Positions 288 through 19,336 of a stretch of DNA of 64,000 nucleotides are shown one piece after another. Positions within the stretch are counted from its first letter, which is position 1; every line of letters starts with the position of its first letter. Source of the DNA: Coleofasciculus sp. FACHB-T130 (GTDB lineage: Bacteria > Cyanobacteriota > Cyanobacteriia > Cyanobacteriales > FACHB-T130); the NCBI RefSeq assembly GCF_014695375.1, contig NZ_JACJOG010000046.1, positions 62,001 to 126,000 on the forward strand. The letters run 5' to 3'. The notes beneath the pieces are model-generated. The model searched no databases, was not told the DNA's origin, and was given only the letters and a program-made list of their open reading frames with translations. The position numbers were made by a program, and so were the translations under genes.

Positions 288-363
288 CCCGTGTCCTAAC
301 AGACAAAGCATACACACTCGGCTGTTAACCGACAAAACCAAATGCTTTTTCGACTTGCACGGG
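288..363 (+). ncRNA. Y-RNA-like stem-closed RNA carrying an Asn-type anticodon hairpin
   Basis: CCCGTG (288-293) pairs with CACGGG (358-363). Inside follow TCCTAAC on the 5' side and CGACTTG on the 3' side, then the inner stem AAAGCAT with ATGCTTT. This is the same scaffold as the seven elements at 16151-18977. The distal part is only a hairpin, TCGG-CTGTTAA-CCGA (318-332), whose 7-nt loop equals the tRNA-Asn(GTT) anticodon loop of the neighbouring genes. It lies between tRNA-Asn and tRNA-Arg(CCT) in the array, about 14 kb from the Ro60-like gene. Calling it a Y RNA is inference from the scaffold it shares with the elements beside that gene. Confidence 0.65.
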
Positions 364-8509: not shown

Positions 8510-9334
8510 TTACGATTTAAGATTATCTCGAAAGTGAGATGCAGCGGATTCGGTAATCTGTTTAATGGCTTGCAAACTCGGCGGTAGTGTGGCGCTATCC
8601 ATATCCAACCACAACAGATACTCGATATTACCAGCAGGCCCGGTCACTGGCGACCAACTTAAGCCGCGATATTGCCATCCCAACGGTTGCGCGGCTTGTA
8701 ATACTTGGAAAATAGCATCTGCTTGATCGTCAGGATCTCGCACCACACCTTTTTTACCAACACGCGATCGCCCGACTTCAAACTGCGGCTTTACTAGCAA
8801 TACCGCTTCTCTAGGAGGCTGTGTCAATTTCCACAAAGCATCGAGAATTTTGGTTAGGGAAATAAACGACACATCTACAACCGTTAAATCTGCTGGCTGT
8901 TCATCACCGTACAATTCCTCTGGTGTGAGATAGCGCAGATTAGTCCGTTCTTTCAACACTACCCGCGTATCATTGCGTAATTTCCAGTCAGCTTGTCCGT
9001 AACCGACATCAACGCCATAAACTTTTTTTGCCCCAGCTTGCAGCAAACAATCGGTGAATCCGCCAGTAGAAATTCCGCCATCTAAGCAAATTCGATCTTG
9101 TACGGAAATGCCAAATTCTTCAAGTGCTTTGGAGAGTTTTTCACCGCCTCTGGAAACAAAACGCGATCGCTCTTTAATTTTAATTTGCGCCTCGGTTTCT
9201 ACCTCCGTTCCCGGCTTATCAATGACTTGCTGATTAACCATTACTTCACCGGCACGTATTAGCCGTTGTGCTAACTGCCGGGAGGTGCATAAATCAAGTT
9301 CTACTAATAAGGTGTCAAGTCGTTGTTTCGCCAT
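8510..9334 (-). CDS. tlyA: TlyA-family rRNA 2'-O-methyltransferase
   Basis: 274 residues. An N-terminal S4 RNA-binding domain (LDTLLVELDLCTSRQLAQRL, residues about 5-65) is followed by an FtsJ-like Rossmann methyltransferase: SRGGEKLSKAL, then DGGISTGGFTD as the SAM-binding motif, VYGVDVGYGQ, and TVVDVSFISL. TlyA enzymes methylate ribose in 16S and/or 23S rRNA; many are still annotated as hemolysin A. The SAM motif has GGIS where most members have IGAS. Length is normal. It lies upstream of a spacer and appears to be transcribed alone. Confidence 0.88.
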   Translation of the reverse strand: MAKQRLDTLLVELDLCTSRQLAQRLIRAGEVMVNQQVIDKPGTEVETEAQIKIKERSRFVSRGGEKLSKALEEFGISVQDRICLDGGISTGGFTDCLLQAGAKKVYGVDVGYGQADWKLRNDTRVVLKERTNLRYLTPEELYGDEQPADLTVVDVSFISLTKILDALWKLTQPPREAVLLVKPQFEVGRSRVGKKGVVRDPDDQADAIFQVLQAAQPLGWQYRGLSWSPVTGPAGNIEYLLWLDMDSATLPPSLQAIKQITESAASHFRDNLKS

Positions 9335-9575
9335 TAATTATATATATTAGGGATTGCTTGCGTGCAAGTTAATAGAGCAAAGCGATCGCAATCGAAAAGG
9401 AACTCCGCTGGTTAGTTATTACACACTATTTAAAGGATAGCTACTTAATCGCTTACCTCCCAGGTTCTTCGCCCCTTCCTCCCACGTTCGCTGCTTCGAT
9501 CGAGTCGAAGCCACGGATACTTATCCTCTCGTAAACAGTATGTATGCTCTAAAAGTTAGGGCACGCAAGCATTAC

Positions 9576-13841: not shown

Positions 13842-14501
13842 TTATTCCCTACCGACCATTTGTGCAGCCACTTCTTCGGCAAAGTTGCTTTCTGGCTTTT
13901 CAATGCCTTCGCCTAACTTAAAGCGGACAAAGCGACGCACTTGGATATTTTCGCCCAGTTGGGCGACGCTTTGCTTAACCAGTTCTTCCACCACAATACT
14001 TTGGTTGCGAACGTAAGGCTGATCCATCAAAGACATTTCTTTCAGGCGTTTTTCAATTCGTCCTTGAAGAATTTTTTCTTTGATGTTTGCTGGTTTGCTA
14101 GCCAAGTCATCGCGTCCCCTTTCGATTTCTGTTTCTTTCGCAACAATTTCAGTCGGAATGTCTGCTACCTTTACATACTCCACATTCGGACAAGCGGCAA
14201 TTTGCATGGCGATGTTCCGCACCAGGGTTTGAAATACTTCACTGCGACTTACAAAATCACTTTCGCAGTTCACTTCTACTAGCACCCCAACTTTACCGCC
14301 AGTATGAATGTAGCTGTCAATAATTCCTTCTGCCGAAATACGATGGCTGCCGCCGCATGTTCTACTCATACTTTTTTGGCGCAACCATGCGATCGCTTTG
14401 GTCATATCGCCATTGGTTTCATCCAGCGCCTTCTTACAATTCATCATGCCTGCACCTGTTTGTAGGCGCAGTTGTTTGACAACTTGTGCAGTTATTTCCA
14501 C
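13842..14501 (-). CDS. tsf-like: EF-Ts paralog (diverged)
   Basis: 219 residues, the short cyanobacterial/plastid EF-Ts form. The UBA-like N-terminus with [23 protein letters not shown] is followed by the core domain with [26 protein letters not shown], and the C-terminal [22 protein letters not shown]-Ts exchanges GDP on EF-Tu. Here TDFV, a main EF-Tu contact, is SDFV, and the loop before ISAEGII is altered ([13 protein letters not shown]). Housekeeping tsf normally follows rpsB, which is absent here. The gene instead follows the Ro60-like gene, 150 bp downstream on the same strand. I infer a second, locus-specific EF-Ts; if the genome has no other tsf this reading fails. Confidence 0.8.
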
Positions 14502-14653: not shown

Positions 14654-16220
<1,567 letters not shown>

Positions 16221-16265
16221 GACAACTGCCATTATAATTTGCCAAGCAAGAGACTGTCATCCCTG

Positions 16266-16700
16266 CTAATCTAAAGGTTTCAAATCCGGTTCAGTCCAAC
16301 TTATCCGAGCTTGCCAAGACATTAAGCGATCGCGACTGTAGTATTGCAAGGGAAAAGACTTATTTCCGTAAATTTTGATAAACTCGTTAACAATATCTAC
16401 GATAGAAAAATCTTTCCCCGCAATCGACAGATATCTACTGATGAGCCGAATCCAAAATAGAGTTATGGTTTCGTGATAGCCGCTGTCGTTGGTGGTTTGG
16501 ATGCCATTCACTTTGTTGTAGTGCTGGATGCGATCGCGTATGCAATTCGTCGCTTCTGCCTTCGAGTAACGAGTGAGATACCATACTGCAACCGTTAAGT
16601 GTGCATGATGATTCCACTCGTCTCGTGGCAATGTGCAATTCTTGAATGCTGCGATTAGATTTTCTATTTCATCGACTGTCTGGTATTTCACAACGACCAT
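16266..16700 (-). CDS. Conserved protein of unknown function, coupled to the L7/L12 paralog
   Basis: 144 residues, soluble and helical. Visible conserved-looking parts are LPRDEWNHHAHLTVAVWYL, NDSGYHETITLFW, and the C-terminal YYSRDRLMSWQARISWTEPDL. I recall similar hypothetical proteins in many bacteria but no function. The His cluster (WNHHAH, GYHET) could bind metal or be catalytic; this is inference. Its ATG overlaps the stop codon of the L7/L12-like gene as TAATG, so the two are translationally coupled and likely made in fixed ratio. Confidence 0.7.
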   Translation of the reverse strand: MVVVKYQTVDEIENLIAAFKNCTLPRDEWNHHAHLTVAVWYLTRYSKAEATNCIRDRIQHYNKVNGIQTTNDSGYHETITLFWIRLISRYLSIAGKDFSIVDIVNEFIKIYGNKSFPLQYYSRDRLMSWQARISWTEPDLKPLD

Positions 16701-17083
16701 TACTTAAGAGCTACTTTCGCACCTGCTACTTCTAGCTGTTGCTTGATGTCGTTGGCATCTGCGAGAGCGATCGCTTCTTTCACCACTTTCGGCGCTGAAT
16801 CAACAAAATCTTTTGCTGACTTCAGATCCAAATTAGTCAAAGTCCGTACAACTTTGAGGATTGCAATCTTCTTATCAGCAGGAACTTCCTCCAAAACTAC
16901 ATCAAACTCAGTTTTTACAGAAAGTTCTTCACCTTTTTCCTCGATTATTTCAATAATACCTGTCTGCTGGCGAGGCGAACCATCAACTCGAAAAGTGGCT
17001 TCAACTTGCTTAACTAATTCTGCCGCTTCGGTTAGTGTTAAAGATTTTACTTGCTCTAGAATCTTAATTGTTTTTACAGACAT
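16700..17083 (-). CDS. rplL-like: Ribosomal protein L7/L12 paralog (diverged)
   Basis: 127 residues from the ATG at 17083, preceded by a GAGGAG site. The N-terminal dimerisation/L10-binding part is close to bLI2 (ILEQVKSLTLTEAAELVKQVE), then a short hinge, then the C-terminal factor-binding domain (KTEFDVVLEEVPADKKIAILK, VVRTLTNLDLKSAKDFVDSAP). The usual TGLGLKEAK is TNLDLKSAK, so a conserved Gly of the factor-binding surface is changed. Housekeeping rplL lies with rplJ in the rplKAJL cluster; neither rplJ nor rpoB is here. It sits between two Y-like RNAs and upstream of the Ro60-like gene. I infer a paralog able to recruit translational GTPases to another particle. Confidence 0.85.
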   Translation of the reverse strand: MSVKTIKILEQVKSLTLTEAAELVKQVEATFRVDGSPRQQTGIIEIIEEKGEELSVKTEFDVVLEEVPADKKIAILKVVRTLTNLDLKSAKDFVDSAPKVVKEAIALADANDIKQQLEVAGAKVALK

Positions 17084-17121
17084 CTTTATACTTCTCCTCA
17101 TAATAAAAAATGAAATATTAT

Positions 17122-17249
<128 letters not shown>

Positions 17250-17255
17250 AAAAGT

Positions 17256-17990
17256 TTAACTATTTGCAAGCTGCTGCATAATGAACTTAATTTCCTTCTT
17301 GTTACACTGACGTTTATCGACAGCGTAACTTTTTCTGTAGATTCTTCTACCTTGCTTCTCCCGTACACTCCAACCGTCAGCAATTTCTTTTAAGACAATA
17401 TCTGTTACTGGCTTTGGTGGTGGTGTATTTTGAAGCTTTATTGCATACCACAAATTGTTAATTTTATGATATTCTAGGCAGTCATTAACAACCACTAGAC
17501 TGTCTTGCTTTTCGGGAGGTTTATTGGGTGCTTTCTTAGCTAAGCAGAGAACTTTAGTATCGGGATGGATATAAAGTTGCTCTCTCCAATAATTCAGCGG
17601 ATTTCTAGGTAAATACTTGCACGATTTAGTAGAATAAGGAACTCCATCAATTAGTTCAACATCCTTTTCCACAAAACCCCATACATGGGAGAGAATATGT
17701 TGTCCTGATAACGTTCTCGTTTCAAGCTGCTGGCATAATTCGCTGTAAACATTATCCCAAGATTCGCCTACTTTAGAATGCAACCAGCGACGTAATGGAC
17801 CAAGACAATCTGAGAAGTGTTTTGTGCGTTTTCTGGTCTTAATTAAATAAGGACAGAGTAACCCTTCTTCAATTGCCTCATTAGTAATCTTTTGCAGAGA
17901 TTTTTTATAGCCTGTAAGCTTTTTTACACTTATCCTCATTCCTCCACGAGGACGTTCAATGACAATTTCCCCCAAACGATGTTCGCTCAT
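17256..17990 (-). CDS. Conserved protein of unknown function in the Ro/Y-RNA locus
   Basis: 244 residues, basic N-terminus and basic C-terminus (KDKRQCNKKE type Lys/Arg-rich tail). The middle has GPLRRWLHSKVGESWDNVYSE followed by LSGQHILSHVWGFVE, which I recall from hypothetical proteins of diverse bacteria, but I know of no function. Later comes LWYAIKL. No nucleic-acid enzyme motif is visible, but the charge suggests RNA binding. It is flanked by Y-like RNAs on both sides (17122-17249 and 18141-18266) on the same strand. Confidence 0.7.
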   Translation of the reverse strand: MSEHRLGEIVIERPRGGMRISVKKLTGYKKSLQKITNEAIEEGLLCPYLIKTRKRTKHFSDCLGPLRRWLHSKVGESWDNVYSELCQQLETRTLSGQHILSHVWGFVEKDVELIDGVPYSTKSCKYLPRNPLNYWREQLYIHPDTKVLCLAKKAPNKPPEKQDSLVVVNDCLEYHKINNLWYAIKLQNTPPPKPVTDIVLKEIADGWSVREKQGRRIYRKSYAVDKRQCNKKEIKFIMQQLANS

Positions 17991-18140: not shown

Positions 18141-18266
18141 GCTCCGCGCAAGTCGAAAAAGCTGTTTGAATATACACGGGAATTGAACCCGTCACGGCTT
18201 GATTATGAGTCAAGTGCTCTAACCAACTGAGCTAGTATGTAAGCTTTATCTATTAGGGCGCGAAGC
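18141..18266 (-). ncRNA. Y-RNA-like RNA with a tRNA module in normal order (CAU anticodon)
   Basis: Closing stem GCTTCGCGC/GCGCGGAGC (9 bp, one G-U); inner stem AAAGCT with AGCTTTTT. The module at 18169-18241 begins TACATACTA, has D arm GCTC/GAGC with a GG in the loop, anticodon stem CTTGA/TCAAG with loop CTCATAA (CAU), and T arm ACGGG-TTCAATT-CCCGT. The acceptor TACATAC pairs only partly with GTATATT. The D, anticodon and T arms are as good as those of a real elongator Met or Ile tRNA, but the acceptor is absorbed into the Y stem. Confidence 0.75.
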
Positions 18267-18292: not shown

Positions 18293-18438
18293 GTGTTCCG
18301 CGCAAGTTAAAAAAGCTATTCACTGGAGAGTTACCGTTACTCTACACTGCCAAATAATGGCAGCGGTAGGAATTGAACCTACATCTCCCGCTTATCAGGC
18401 GGATGTGTGTATGCTTTTCAGGTTAGGGCGCGGAACAC
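18293..18438 (-). ncRNA. Y-RNA-like RNA with a circularly permuted tRNA-Ile (GAU)
   Basis: Closing stem GTGTTCCGCGC/GCGCGGAACAC is perfect over 11 bp. In 5'-3' order the RNA has the anticodon arm TCCGC-CTGATAA-GCGGG, AGAT, the T arm GTAGG-TTCAATT-CCTAC, the 3' acceptor half CGCTGCC, a 7-nt linker ATTATTT, the 5' acceptor half GGCAGTG, TA, and the D arm GAGT-AACGGTA-ACTC. The two acceptor halves pair over 7 bp (one G-U). So the tRNA is complete but its ends are joined, and it is opened between the D and anticodon arms, where the Y stem is attached. Confidence 0.8.
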
Positions 18439-18504: not shown

Positions 18505-18624
18505 CACTTCGTACAAGTTAAGAAAGCTATAGTTAACGGGAGTTGAACCCGACCTATCGATTAATCAGTCGATTGCTCTACCACAGAGCTAGTATGTAAG
18601 CTTTTTAAGTTTGGGTACGAAGTG
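18505..18624 (-). ncRNA. Y-RNA-like RNA with a degenerate tRNA module in normal order
   Basis: Closing stem CACTTCGTAC/GTACGAAGTG is perfect over 10 bp and differs from the CGCGC type by compensating changes, good evidence that the stem is selected. The inner part has AAAAAGCT and TACATACTA as in the others. D arm GCTC/GAGC is intact. The anticodon-like stem ATCGA/TCGAT closes an 8-nt loop CTGATTAA, so no single anticodon can be read. The T arm is four pairs (CGGG-TTCAACT-CCCG) and the acceptor does not pair well. It may be decaying or freed from tRNA-like constraint. Confidence 0.65.
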
Positions 18625-18665: not shown

Positions 18666-18790
18666 GCTACGCGCAAGTTTAAGAAGCTTTTTTGACACCT
18701 CTCCATGCAGCGGAGAGGGTAGGAATCGAACCTACAATTCGGTTTCCCGAACGTTACCAGTTTGTATGCTTCTTACATCGGGGCGCGTGC
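18666..18790 (-). ncRNA. Y-RNA-like RNA with a rearranged tRNA-Ser-like body
   Basis: Closing stem ACGCGC/GCGCGT, inner stem GAAGC/GCTTC. In RNA order: ATACAAACTGGTAACG, a hairpin TTCGG-GAAA-CCGAA, T arm GTAGG-TTCGATT-CCTAC, 3' acceptor half CCTCTCC, linker GCTGCAT, 5' acceptor half GGAGAGG, TGTC, then the Y stem. The acceptor halves pair perfectly over 7 bp and G follows the 3' half, as in tRNA-Ser. The GAAA-capped hairpin stands where a class II variable arm would be. No D arm or full anticodon arm is left. It is a permuted, reduced tRNA. Confidence 0.7.
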
Positions 18791-18830: not shown

Positions 18831-18977
18831 TCCCGCGCAAGTCAGCAAAGCTGTTATCACTTGGCGCTCTATCCGTTGAGCTACGACTGCATTAAGAAGC
18901 AGTCGGTGGGAGTCGAACCCACTACCTCCCCGACCGAAGCGGGAATGTGTGTAAGCTTCACAAATTAGGGCGCGGGA
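18831..18977 (-). ncRNA. Y-RNA-like RNA with a circularly permuted tRNA-Arg (UCG)
   Basis: Closing stem TCCCGCGC/GCGCGGGA is perfect over 8 bp. In RNA order: anticodon arm TCCCG-CTTCGGT-CGGGG (anticodon UCG), AGGTA, T arm GTGGG-TTCGACT-CCCAC, 3' acceptor half CGACTGC, linker TTCTTAAT, 5' acceptor half GCAGTCG, TA, D arm GCTC-AACGGATA-GAGC, then the 3' strand of the Y stem. The acceptor is a perfect 7-bp stem. All four tRNA arms are canonical, but the break is between D and anticodon arms. This is the first RNA after the small leading gene of the locus. Confidence 0.82.

Positions 18978-19036: not shown

Positions 19037-19336
<300 letters not shown>

Follow-up and report, generated by a model that had tools for sequence, protein, structure and literature searches.

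What kind of molecule is a short RNA-like element that carries parts of a tRNA in the wrong order, and for what is it kept? This question is raised by the minus strand of the window analysed here, a stretch of 64,000 nucleotides from Coleofasciculus sp. FACHB-T130. The initial annotation described positions 18666-18790 as a reduced, permuted tRNA-Ser-like element; this description was upheld, with an exact span of 18668-18790 on the minus strand. The RNA reads GCACGCGCCCCGAUGUAAGAAGCAUACAAACUGGUAACG-UUCGG-GAAA-CCGAA-UU-GUAGG-UUCGAUU-CCUAC-CCUCUCC-GCUGCAU-GGAGAGG-UGUC-AAAAAAGCUUCUUAAACUUGCGCGUAGC, and its module comprises a T arm, a closed 7-bp acceptor, a GAAA-capped hairpin and a D-loop-like ACUGG stretch with no D stem. 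The minimum free energy was -46.4 kcal/mol, against -30.05 +/- 3.57 for shuffles (z -4.58), and 0/200 shuffles reached a value as low. The best fold contains the T arm, the 5-bp hairpin with its GAAA cap and the acceptor CCUCUCC/GGAGAGG, which a short linker closes. Around the module lies an outer stem (GCACGCGC/GCGCGUAGC and GAAGC/GCUUC), hereafter the handle, which is the key to the element because it is common to all members of the family described below.

Neither ARAGORN nor Rfam identified a tRNA with a complete cloverleaf at 18668-18790. Un-permuting the sequence did not restore one: no junction tried yielded an ARAGORN tRNA, whereas the neighbouring Arg and Ile elements did yield one, and the joined halves of the element do not add up to the complete tRNA that a permuted tRNA gene should give. 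Even so, the structure has been maintained. In an alignment of 14 Ser-type cyanobacterial loci, a small sample of related sequences, the structure named above pairs 95.0% of the cells, a figure that drops to 29-47% when the structure is slid along the alignment; double-compensated cells number 15, against 2.5 in shuffles (0/500). Every pair of handle helices 1 and 2 forms in 14/14 sequences, which is not independent evidence because pairing of the arms was required by the search. The inner hairpin does provide independent evidence, with double changes at 3/5 of its pairs, and the T arm, UACAAAC, UGG and AC (the ACUGG..AAC stretch) are near-invariant. Judged from these sequences, the element is not a degraded tRNA: the possibility that this copy had simply decayed was checked and fails on the fold kept in the 14 loci and on the compensated cells, a count that none of the 500 shuffles matched.

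The same alignment modifies two other points of the initial annotation. The GAAA-capped hairpin, which it had taken for a replacement of the class II variable arm, does belong to the minimum free energy fold, but its sequence is better read as an anticodon-type hairpin that is sometimes capped by a tetraloop, because among the homologues the aligned arm of 5 bp ends in an anticodon-like loop of 7 nt in 8/14, and a tetraloop stands there in 6/14. The acceptor is also variable. In six loci, mostly from relatives of Microcoleus, it is cut to a hairpin of 3-4 bp closed by a short loop, mostly a tetraloop, whereas most of the remaining loci have it at full length; among these 14 related loci, the reduction of the hairpin and that of the acceptor never co-occur. 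The annotation had suggested selection for binding to tRNA-handling proteins and not for decoding. Decoding is indeed unlikely, but an acceptor that is not kept everywhere speaks against common partners such as SerRS, RNase P or the CCA-adding enzyme.

The handle defines a family much larger than the Ser-type. Its consensus is CGCGCCCUAAC-N-AAAGCU-UACAUAC ... AGCUUU-N-RACUUGCGCG or, in short, the arms CGCGCCCUAAC...AAAGCUUACA / AGCUUU...RACUUGCGCG around interchangeable modules, and in its fold an asymmetric internal loop separates a lower stem from an upper one. Arm-type matches numbered 455, against 47 in reversed sequence, which amounts to hundreds of elements. The 5' and 3' ends of these elements pair, as in the conserved stem of Y RNAs, although such pairing was presupposed by the search. 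Two other identities for the handle were considered and rejected. In integron attC sites the core sites are expected to be paired across the internal loop; the handle shares with them the outer complementary stem, the internal loop, the inner stem and the variable tip, but has no such paired core sites. As for a self-cleaving ribozyme, no Rfam family of this kind matched at the gathering score.

Eight further copies of the handle occur in the window, seven on the minus strand and one on the plus strand, and their modules differ. Next to the Ser-type element, 18832-18976 (minus) contains a circularly permuted tRNA-Arg(UCG)-type module in which the handle enters between the D and anticodon arms; ARAGORN recognizes a tRNA only once the module is un-permuted, and positions 18863-18929 give a sub-threshold Rfam YrlA match of 31.6 bits. 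The tRNA-Ile(GAU)-type module at 18297-18434 (minus) is likewise permuted and is an ARAGORN tRNA only after un-permutation. Normal-order modules are found, all on the minus strand, at 18508-18621 (Rfam tRNA, 30.3 bits at 18529-18598, none by ARAGORN; the anticodon loop has 8 nt, CUGAUUAA), at 18143-18264 (tRNA with a CAU anticodon) and at 17125-17246 (tRNA-Leu(UAA) type without the long variable arm), the last two being detected by both ARAGORN and Rfam between handle arms. A short 'empty' element, recognized by its handle arms, occupies 16151-16222 (minus), directly upstream of a Ro60-like gene, and the arm scan and the sequence itself identify a lone anticodon arm of the Asn GUU type at 289-362 (plus), within a tRNA array.

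A census of 351 distinct elements, all shorter than 240 nt and with a UACA/UACU motif, generalizes this picture. A normal-order tRNA was detected by ARAGORN in 109 of them, and in 80 the T arm is followed by a closed acceptor; un-permuting turns 70/80 of the latter into ARAGORN tRNAs, and cutting 25 nt away does so in 0/80. The anticodon loops of normal-order modules have U33 in 93/100 cases and a purine at position 37 in 99/100. The proposal that different elements retain different parts of the tRNA is borne out across the modules of the family. Rfam matches on the opposite strand, such as Plastid-ycf2, were discarded as tRNA antisense.

Other modules derive from 23S rRNA. The element at 9360-9566 (minus) combines the sarcin-ricin loop core ACGAGAGGA, found as the exact sequence, with the GTPase-associated centre, which matches the Rfam LSU model (46.7 bits, E 1.7e-12, positions 1077-1160) and, by BLAST, E. 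coli 23S 1027-1112; the E. coli sequence was used as the reference because the 23S genes of the organism itself were not found in its assembly. BLAST against this reference distinguishes a GTPase-centre type (1036-1113) and a helix 69 type (1909-1941). The tail of the latter, by eye, resembles 23S at about 1893-1905, which would make the helix 69 type permuted too. In 18 inserts the sarcin-ricin core shares one RNA with the GTPase-associated centre; the sarcin-ricin type occurs at 17 loci and the helix 69 type at 19, and most loci have tRNA-type modules only. A search of the elements for 16S or 5S modules found none, save one weak 16S match that we do not trust. A gene for a TlyA-type rRNA methyltransferase (8510-9334) adjoins the 23S-type element, an arrangement seen in only 1/80 loci.

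The gene at 14654-16102 (minus) encodes a protein of 482 aa with a predicted helical-repeat domain and a C-terminal vWA domain bearing the MIDAS motif DKSSSM. Pfam TROVE (PF05731) matches neither this protein nor any other of its genome, the TROVE HMMs missing it, and a PDB profile search reached TROVE chains only at E 0.11, a weak hint to the same family. With the AlphaFold model (pLDDT 82), in contrast, the top 13 Foldseek matches were all Ro60/Rsr/TROVE proteins (E 1.5e-12 to 1.7e-9), among which Rsr of Deinococcus radiodurans (2nvo) had an E of 4e-11. In VIA, whole-chain matches came only from the Ro60 family (Z 18.9-22.0, the highest over 438 residues), and the next ones, confined to the vWA domain, had a Z of about 15. 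By its predicted fold, the product is a divergent Ro60 protein that lies outside Pfam TROVE.

Gene and handle go together. The gene is present in 25/60 relatives. A wider scan yielded 206 related places, and from these we collected 80 Ro60-like loci, which belong to Nostoc, Microcoleus, Fischerella, Oscillatoria, Okeania and other genera. Handle elements lie near the gene in 77/80 of these loci, as is expected of a Y RNA, and in 49/80 an element ends at most 120 nt upstream of it. The genome of the window has two Ro60-like loci, with an element directly upstream of each. Across 244 cyanobacterial genomes the 3' arm pattern was found in 13/18 with a Ro60-like gene and in 10/226 without (Fisher p 6e-12, a value that overstates independence because the genomes are related), and at least two handle matches occurred in 8/18 gene-bearing genomes and in 0/226 lacking the gene. 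The exact 3' arm pattern was absent from 5/18 gene-bearing genomes, in some of which the gene is broken or the arms are variant. As a control, the pattern with one base added matched nothing in the organism's own genome. Several matches to the 3' arm with one extra base, possibly another variant of the handle, come from three genomes of one genus (G164, G204 and G116) that have a truncated or broken Ro60-like gene or none at all. A contig labelled as an Acidobacteria MAG (L080) carries a Ro60-like gene together with handle elements, through either transfer or mis-binning. In eight loci (L014, L016, L017, L031, L034, L046, L080 and L102) a different conserved 5' leader precedes the Ro60-like gene, GGUGCG...CGCUGCAAGCCUGA..CC...GCAGGC, and no Rfam match was found for it in the three loci scanned.

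Taken by their layout, their linkage to the gene and their modules, the elements are very probably Ro60-linked Y RNAs. Their closest counterparts are the bacterial Y RNAs of the YrlA type (Rfam RF02553), the partners of Rsr/Ro60 proteins, with which they share a stem of paired ends, an adjoining Ro60-type gene and an inner tRNA-like domain with permuted D, T and acceptor arms and a closed acceptor (PMC8394870). The 70/80 closed-acceptor elements that become tRNAs once un-permuted have this organization; the Ser-type has it only in part. None of the scanned elements reached the gathering score of YrlA or of any other Y RNA model in Rfam, and the best YrlA match, a permuted-tRNA element aligned over the whole model, had 37.8 bits (E 9e-5; gathering score 69). 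The cyanobacterial family differs from YrlA in that a genome has many copies, of different isotypes, that the partner lies outside Pfam TROVE, and that there are additional modules: pieces of 23S rRNA, tRNAs in normal order, and anticodon arms that are authentic and in some elements stand alone. Y RNAs are known to bind Ro60 by the stem and to act through the inner part, which in YrlA mimics tRNA and is modified as a tRNA (PMC8394870). In vertebrates the site of Ro60 is a helix in which a bulged C faces a bulge of 3 nt (PMC4726728), and the handle has a C and ACUU at comparable places. The handle is the probable binding site of the adjoining Ro60-like ring protein.

A promoter lies ahead of the array. 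At 19307-19336 (minus), upstream of the gene at 19037-19300 and of the array, TTGACA is followed by TGTAGTAT, a TrcR-type operator that overlaps the -10 box. In Anabaena, TrcR represses a tRNA array and rtcB through the site TGTAGTAT, and translation inhibitors relieve this repression (PMC10272220). Sites of the form TTGACA-N-TGTAGTAT occur across the loci 54 times on the gene strand and 5 times on the other; such a promoter heads most of the homologous arrays except in the main Nostoc group, where the first gene already has an element in front of it, and a similar one lies ahead of the second Ro60-like locus of the window's genome. Because the promoter matches the published operator, the arrays would be expected to be on when translation is disturbed, and control of the Y RNA arrays by translational stress appears likely from the sequence. 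The Anabaena regulon offers further parallels, as it has the same operator over the -10 box and a many-isotype tRNA array like the one adjoining this locus, but no Ro60-like genes or Y RNAs appear in the regulon table examined (PMC10272220). In the Salmonella rsr-yrlBA-rtcBA operon, Ro60 and Y RNAs are likewise combined with induction by RNA or translation trouble, namely by broken tRNAs (PMC7790460), induction in the cyanobacterial case being our inference; there the regulator is RtcR instead of a TrcR-type repressor, and here an RtcB gene is located elsewhere in the genome.

Several other genes recur in these loci; those given here with window coordinates are on the minus strand. At the array head, 19037-19300 encodes a small conserved protein (66-87 aa, 64/80 loci); between elements, 17256-17990 encodes a conserved protein of 244 aa (38/80), for which no Pfam or fold match was found, its model (pLDDT 69) having no PDB match at E 0.001; and 16266-16700 encodes a conserved protein of 144 aa (32/80). 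An extra copy of ribosomal protein L7/L12 at 16700-17176 (TIGR00855, 100.4 bits) is shared by 27/80 loci, and a short additional elongation factor Ts gene at 13842-14501 (TIGR00116, 202.7 bits) by 7/80. Further neighbours among the 80 loci are a ThiF-like protein (39), a 276-aa protein (41), a second vWA protein (8) and, in 10/80, a KptA/Tpt1-type RNA 2'-phosphotransferase near the Ro60-like gene, as in L102 (13135-13692). PADLOC gave only weak helicase and dynamin-type matches among the neighbours.

We propose that the handle of each Y RNA would bind the divergent Ro60-like ring protein, while the inner module would imitate a surface of the translation apparatus, which in 18668-18790 would be a reduced, permuted tRNA elbow made of the T arm, the closed acceptor hairpin and the anticodon-type hairpin. 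The set of RNAs would be made from one array and induced by release of TrcR under translational stress. On the resulting RNPs the modules, which imitate anticodon arms and elbows of tRNA, helix 69 of 23S rRNA or the sarcin-ricin/GTPase-centre region, could serve as baits or decoys, drawing in nucleases, toxins and any other factor by which these surfaces are attacked or bound. We favour this purpose because the inner parts are pieces of the translation machinery that proteins bind and toxins cut; a similar idea was put forward for Salmonella, where the tRNA-like part of YrlA was suggested to compete for an anticodon nuclease (PMC7790460). As a bait or decoy for attack directed at tRNA or rRNA, a purpose suggested by the appearance of the modules, the reading is quite possible though far from assured, and the explanation as a whole, blending identity, stress control and bait or decoy, seems to us reasonably probable. 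Tentatively, the system might be pictured as a stress-induced Ro60 RNP whose library of imitation translation parts would bait or sense the toxins and nucleases that attack the genuine ones.

Tethering, sequestration of factors or regulation of quality control would fit the same anatomy. The modules might dock the Ro60-like ring onto enzymes that handle tRNA or rRNA (PNPase, modification enzymes, RtcB or ribosome factors), with damaged RNAs being passed on to decay or repair. The RYPER complex of D. radiodurans (Rsr-Y RNA-PNPase), in which Rsr and a Y RNA tether PNPase (PMC8394870), sets the example, sharing with our system a Ro60-fold protein and the handle/effector layout of the Y RNA; it differs in that the cyanobacterial side has arrays with many modules. 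The published biology of YrlA and RYPER (PMC8394870, PMC7790460), the YrlA match of the permuted elements, the Ro60 fold and the presence of KptA near some loci all speak for tethering, but six Ser-type homologues have lost a tRNA-like acceptor and the modules range widely, which would demand many different docking partners, and we regard tethering as rather doubtful. Sequestration, by which both kinds of 23S module (sarcin-ricin/GTPase-centre and helix 69), together with the additional L7/L12 and EF-Ts proteins, would bind translation GTPases or ribosome-recycling factors and slow translation in stress, gains from the joining of both 23S parts of the factor-binding site in one module (in E. 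coli numbering) and from the 27/80 loci with L7/L12 and 7/80 with EF-Ts; most loci, however, have tRNA-type modules alone (17 with the sarcin-ricin type, 19 with helix 69), and we think it improbable.

The bait or decoy reading must also be set against explanations in which the modules are tRNA genes. The permuted order with a closed acceptor, and the tRNAs restored by un-permuting, might mean that the permuted elements are circularly permuted tRNA genes, to be spliced into working tRNAs. In the genes of this kind known from algae and archaea the 3' half also precedes the 5' half; there the product is a mature tRNA, whereas here the handle fills the junction and the module stays enclosed. The junction ends lie inside a handle that unpermuted, empty and rRNA elements have as well, no tRNA is obtained from the Ser-type, the Leu-type copy has no long variable arm, and normal-order copies carry the handle where free ends belong, which makes this explanation very improbable. 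Decay of tRNA genes within functionless repeats would account for the reduced state of some modules, but it is hard to believe in view of the compensatory changes, the linkage to one gene and promoter and the retention of U33 and purine 37.

Y RNAs have been known for decades from bacteria to humans, and the roles of their variable inner part are unclear. That bacterial Y RNAs can be tRNA mimics is already known; in the open-access papers searched we found no report of rRNA-type Y RNA modules or of such a repertoire. In the family described here, which occurs in many genera of cyanobacteria, recognizable pieces of the translation apparatus take turns as the inner part and, because the pieces are recognizable, the partners can be guessed and tested one piece at a time. 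The sarcin-ricin loop and the GTPase-associated centre lie far apart in the 23S sequence and form one factor-binding site, and their joining in one RNA constitutes a ready-made mimic. Such a system would also be a case in which permuted and reduced tRNA-like RNAs are selected for being bound and not for decoding. The initial annotation mentioned neither the constant outer handle nor the adjoining Ro60-like gene, and it left out both the modules of rRNA type and the promoter that probably responds to translational stress.

The tRNA array comprises more than 30 genes for most isotypes, with handle elements inside, and extends over positions 1-680 of the window and 7583-12500 of L124, ending at the left of the window. 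Within it, to the left of the window, L124 11295-11500 holds a second sarcin-ricin/GTPase-centre element (LSU model, 44.3 bits). Some of its tRNA genes have unusual T loops (GGCAGUA), and at L124 9998-10843 the array encloses a 281-aa ORF, which we take to be of the TIGR02452 type.
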